DNA from: Candidatus Gastranaerophilales bacterium
Lineage (GTDB): Bacteria; Cyanobacteriota; Vampirovibrionia; Gastranaerophilales; Gastranaerophilaceae
Direction: 5' to 3'
Length of the DNA: 48,692 nucleotides
Assembly: GCA_944325895.1 (NCBI GenBank)
Contig: CALVCA010000011.1
Location: 1 to 48,692 of the forward strand
Position 1 is the first letter of the stretch; each line of letters starts with the position of its first letter. This document shows positions 105 through 316 of this stretch, piece after piece. The notes under the pieces were generated by a model. That model saw only the letters and a list, made by a program, of their open reading frames with translations, was not told the origin of the DNA and did not search any database. The translations under genes and the position numbers were made by a program.

Positions 105-281
105 TATAAAGCCCTATACGAACGCGATTTTGTTACCTGCCGGTCTCGCAGGTGGGTGAGTGCCTCGGCAAATCCGTTTCCCGCTGGCGATTTTTAAATC
201 GGCGGGTATACTGCAATGCCTGTCAGAGCTAACTCTCCCTGTTAAATAAATGTAGGAACAAAATTAGCACCCGCATAGAGC
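105..281 (-). ncRNA. ssrS: 6S-like regulatory RNA (candidate)
   Basis: A non-coding stretch of about 175 nt, distinctly more GC-rich than its surroundings, folds by eye into the rod typical of 6S RNA. The closing stem pairs 281-272 with 120-111 (10 pairs, two G-U). A second stem pairs 264-257 with 134-127 (8 perfect pairs). A central bubble follows, with a single-stranded 5' side (256-240) and a small hairpin on the 3' side (153-148 with 140-135). Then come 239-232 with 161-154 (one mismatch), 220-217 with 170-167, and an apical hairpin 206-196 with 193-180. The promoter at 288-316 predicts a start at about 281, exactly the first base of the closing stem. 6S RNA (Rfam family RF00013) binds RNA polymerase as an open-promoter mimic. 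Size, bubble position and 3' hairpin all fit. A structured mRNA leader is the main alternative. Confidence 0.65.
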
Positions 282-287
282 AATAAC

Positions 288-316
288 ATTTTAACATATT
301 AAACAAATGTTTGCAA
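288..316 (-). promoter_or_regulatory. promoter of the 6S-like RNA
   Basis: Read on the minus strand: TTGCAA (316-311), exactly 17 nt, TAAAAT (293-288). The predicted start is about 281. The -35 sits 2 nt beyond the stop codon of the 659-residue membrane protein gene, so the RNA is a separate unit directly downstream of that gene. Confidence 0.6.

Follow-up and report, generated by a model that had tools for sequence, protein, structure and literature searches.

The left end of the window (the whole stretch of 48,692 nucleotides that was analysed, from a Candidatus Gastranaerophilales bacterium, contig CALVCA010000011.1) carries on its minus strand a gene for a protein of 659 amino acids (319-2298) and, 37 nt behind the end of that gene, a rod-shaped RNA that runs from position 281 to about 105 (Table 1). 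The stretch from 105 to 281 is enriched in GC, as the first-pass annotation had remarked, with a G+C content of 48.6% vs. 33.3% for the whole window. Base-by-base checks confirmed each of the stems that had been proposed from inspection: 10 of 10 pairs, two of them G-U, between 281-272 and 120-111, 8 of 8 in the second stem, 6 of 6 in the 3'-side hairpin and 7 of 8, with one A-A mismatch, in the stem of the upper arm. All four are included in the minimum-energy fold, where the closing stem is lengthened to 15 pairs and is followed by a small bulge, the 8-pair stem, a central bubble bearing a hairpin on its 3' side, and finally an upper arm that is interrupted by internal loops and capped by an apical hairpin. 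Folding of the minus strand from 281 to 105 gave a free energy of -61.8 kcal/mol, compared to -46.1 ± 4.2 kcal/mol for 200 shuffled sequences (z = -3.77), none of which folded as well. After the closing stem, the sequence UUUAUA is found at 110-105, and in the set of aligned homologues a mean of 6.6 of the 10 bases after this stem are T, suggesting that a weak U-rich tail may mark the 3' end of the RNA. No terminator was detected at this end in the terminator scan.

Table 1. Features of the predicted 6S RNA locus in the window
Feature	Positions	Strand	Remarks	Basis
6S RNA gene (predicted)	105..281	-	inferred ends: 5' near 281, 3' near 105-110	RF00013 and R1 matches, fold z
Closing stem P1, 5' arm	267..281	-	pairs with 111-125	13 of 15 helix pairs doubly changed
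Closing stem P1, 3' arm	111..125	-	short U-rich tail after it	
Second stem, 5' arm	257..264	-	pairs with 127-134; also far part of the pRNA template	100% of cells paired
Second stem, 3' arm	127..134	-		pairing check and alignment
Central bubble, 5' strand	240..256	-		fold and RNAalifold
3'-side hairpin of central bubble	135..153	-	arms 153-148 / 140-135	96% of cells paired
Upper arm	154..239	-	stem 239-232 / 161-154, internal loops, apical hairpin	fold and alignment
Predicted pRNA 5'-GUAGGAACAAAAUU	252..265	+	6S RNA as template, start opposite C252	hallmarks of PMC8414754
-35 element TTGCAA	311..316	-		most relatives of genus and family have TTGAAA or a similar element, likewise spaced by 16-18
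-10 element TAAAAT	288..293	-	extended by a preceding TG	31 of 41 sequences have TGn ahead of the best -10

6S RNA is widespread in bacteria and holds RNA polymerase by mimicking an open promoter. A search with the covariance model RF00013 (6S) at permissive settings supported the first-pass assignment, yielding a match at 286-105 on the minus strand that covers all 187 of 187 model positions with 35.5 bits and an E-value of 1.6e-5 in 700 bases; genome-wide, it was the sole match (E = 9e-6). Its score is below the curated gathering cut-off of 46.4 bits, which is an annotation threshold and not a biological feature. At curated gathering thresholds, Rfam reported nothing in the window, a result that alone would wrongly have suggested the absence of any known RNA. 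The locus has the features of the RF00013 rod, namely a length of about 175-190 nt, a closing stem, a central bubble, an apical stem and compensatory changes, and homologues in the order that score over the cut-off (47-62 bits) are linked to the window sequence by one covarying alignment. No other family gave a credible match at the locus. Matches of RAGATH-34, mir-7939 and snoRNA models within positions 1-700 were far under their cut-offs, overlapped the protein-coding gene and were dismissed as chance, and neither a tRNA nor a tmRNA was detected in the window.

For the covariation analysis, 41 homologues were aligned by sequence only and the structure was then derived from the same alignment. 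RNAalifold proposed 46 pairs, of which 29 show changes on both sides. Standard pairs were present in 95.3% of the alignment cells, compared to 82.1% in shuffles and 38-46% in slid structures, and cells with changes on both sides amounted to 245, vs. 69 in shuffles and 23-45 in slid structures. Since the structure was taken from the alignment, the slid control leans in its favour; still, the margin is very large. Clearly, the stems first noticed in a single sequence are preserved in relatives, and by compensatory change (Table 1).

The distribution of the RNA was studied in 192 genomes of the order. RF00013, a search independent of the 41-sequence alignment, gave a match at E ≤ 1 in 153 of them and a match over the cut-off in 36, with a best score of 62.4 bits (uncultured Gastranaerophilales, Melainabacteria); within the class, its matches reach further families. 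A lineage covariance model, R1, was built from the alignment of the 41 homologues, the window sequence among them, and finds the RNA in 186 of the 192 genomes (178 of the 182 of good quality), nearly always as a single match per genome. The R1 match in the window (290-102, 181 bits) is not independent, as the window provided one of the 41 training sequences. In the genus mate without an R1 match (G006), a BLAST match is truncated at a contig end, so that the absence of 6S RNA there looks like an assembly gap. Among the genomes of a phylum-wide sample, R1 reached eight outside the class (E-values from 2e-13 to 3e-8) and not the others sampled there. Two genomes gave two 6S-model matches each (G062 with RF00013 and G144 with R1), which may reflect a second copy or a weak chance match. 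Most genomes of the genera g43, g44, g48 and g9 had no listed RF00013 match at E ≤ 1 but were found by R1 with E-values of about 1e-12 to 1e-29, indicating strong divergence of the 6S RNAs in part of the family.

The promoter TTGCAA-17-TAAAAT, as predicted from inspection, is found at 316-288 on the minus strand, and its extended -10 element TGTTAAAAT ends 6 nt before position 281, the first base of the closing stem. In the window, consensus matching alone would place this promoter near chance, and its weight rests on conservation in relatives. For the 41 loci, the best promoter score averaged 9.1 of 12 vs. 7.2 for shuffled upstream regions, from which only 2.4 occurrences of TGn before the -10 element would be expected compared to the 31 observed. 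In most relatives an extended -10 promoter lies 6 nt upstream of the closing stem, and this distance is nearly fixed while the flanking genes vary. The signal is strongest in the family of the window, whereas some other families of the order show it weakly.

The 659-aa gene is close by, and in most genus mates it likewise precedes the 6S gene with the same orientation, which would be in agreement with an RNA cut from the 3'-UTR of its mRNA. However, near the RNA the promoter elements are retained even at loci with another upstream gene, and such an origin seems very improbable to us, even if read-through from the upstream gene might occur in addition to transcription from the RNA's own promoter. 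On the other side, the RNA is often followed within the genus, after 24-175 nt, by the start of a gene on the same strand, as would be expected for a structured, riboswitch-like leader of the gene at the left edge. However, the downstream gene differs among relatives: some encode a ParA/MinD-like ATPase there, others a protein whose N-terminus resembles that of type IV pilins, and the opposite strand carries the next gene in several, including L016, L034, L038, L039 and L040; moreover, 6S is the sole credible family match there. We consider a leader function extremely unlikely, and both readings were rejected on synteny. The placement just before a given coding gene, which the first-pass annotation had described as frequent for 6S RNA, did not hold among relatives, and because the neighbours vary and are sometimes encoded on the other strand, the RNA is best regarded as the product of an independent gene, with a predicted promoter of its own and apparently not tied to one mRNA.

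Features common to the start sites of product RNAs (pRNAs) on 6S RNAs are an adenine of the 6S RNA directly upstream of the start, GG at positions 4/5 or 5/6 and AA at positions 9/10 (PMC8414754). The equivalent site here is C252, in the 5' strand of the central bubble, and all three features, with the GG at 4/5, are present in 41 of 41 sequences. Indeed, the upstream A, G1, A3, GG at 4/5, A6, C8 and AAAA at 9-12 are identical in all 41, and position 7 of the pRNA is A or U, changing together with its partner. Such a constraint on the sequence beyond pairing would be expected of a template and is probably the best evidence, as far as sequence goes, that this RNA works as a 6S RNA. The pRNA of Bacillus subtilis 6S-1 RNA also starts with G. 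A 6S-like RNA devoid of template function, for example one of the Ms1 type that binds the core polymerase, would not be expected to keep the pRNA template signature. With this signature nearly invariant and the RF00013 match of full length, we give hardly any credence to an Ms1-type RNA at this locus, even though Ms1 RNA is structurally related to 6S RNA and binds core RNA polymerase (PMC9130861).

The RF00013 match, the covariation and the variable synteny support the interpretation as the 6S RNA of this lineage, and the structure, conservation, template signature and promoter position, as predicted from the DNA, point in the same direction. The locus is thus almost certainly the ssrS homologue of this Gastranaerophilales bacterium and its only 6S RNA gene, encoded on the minus strand with its own housekeeping-type promoter, and polymerase holding and pRNA-driven release of the enzyme would be its functions by analogy. 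Polymerase binding, pRNA synthesis and a role in starvation and recovery would be expected from membership in the family, including from work on the cyanobacterial homologue (PMC5721685). The long rod with its central bubble would imitate a melted promoter, and when nutrients are short the 6S RNA would bind the housekeeping RNA polymerase holoenzyme and keep the enzyme off promoters. Once nucleotides return, the polymerase would copy the bubble into a short pRNA starting GUAGGAACAAAA (GUAGGAAC) at C252, and by analogy with known 6S RNAs this synthesis would cause the 6S RNA to refold and the enzyme to be freed. Given the near-invariant, A-U-rich second stem and pRNA template, polymerase release in Gastranaerophilales might differ in pRNA length or nucleotide sensitivity from that of known 6S RNAs, an idea that we consider speculative and unlikely to be correct.

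When compared to the 6S/SsrS RNAs of RF00013, the RNA is similar in its size, closing stem, central bubble with 3'-side hairpin, apical stem, full-length match and pRNA start signature, whereas this genus scores under the curated cut-off and the A-U-rich second stem is nearly invariant here. Cyanobacterial 6S RNA (ssaA of Synechocystis PCC 6803; PMC5721685) represents the same RNA family in a related lineage, and the control genome of Synechococcus elongatus gave an RF00013 match over the cut-off. However, in the phylum-wide sample R1 fails to reach the majority of genomes from outside the class, indicating that the sequences have diverged far. In B. subtilis 6S-1 RNA a hairpin is also formed opposite the 5' central bulge (PMC8414754), as in the RNA described here. 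In contrast to the two 6S paralogues of B. subtilis, the Gastranaerophilales RNA is present as a single copy.

The first-pass annotation had called the RNA undescribed, which is correct mainly insofar as this genus misses the Rfam threshold and goes too far for the order, where the 36 genomes passing the RF00013 cut-off are ones in which routine annotation would find the RNA. In the open-access literature searched, no paper was found to mention 6S RNA in connection with Melainabacteria, and the papers that were listed for Gastranaerophilales and related groups do not refer to it. The RNA is an ordinary 6S RNA and belongs to a kind that is already known; the open literature searched gave no explicit account of it for this group, and the degree of surprise is low. 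A near-universal, single-copy 6S regulator is thereby placed in an uncultured, non-photosynthetic sister group of the cyanobacteria. The Rfam cut-off misses most members of the order (36 of 192 pass, vs. 186 of 192 having the RNA), and the 41-sequence alignment would improve the RF00013 family model, with no new principle involved.

Some minor observations concern the neighbouring genes. The 659-aa protein has no Pfam match and shows a conserved C-terminal motif, ETLAM(K/R/N)W, in most genus mates. In some genus mates, L010 (3-1442, minus strand) and also L003, L008 and L012, the protein encoded after the 6S gene has an N-terminal methylation motif of the pilin type; in the L010 protein, many short 'NTAFG/NIAIGxxAL' repeats follow the pilin-type motif, an unusual-looking combination. 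The contig of the window starts with nine C, leaving at most about 28 nt of sequence for the left-edge gene, and an ATG behind a GGAGG ribosome-binding site, near 28-26 on the minus strand, runs into this poly-C end, so that the break in the contig probably lies within the beginning of a gene.
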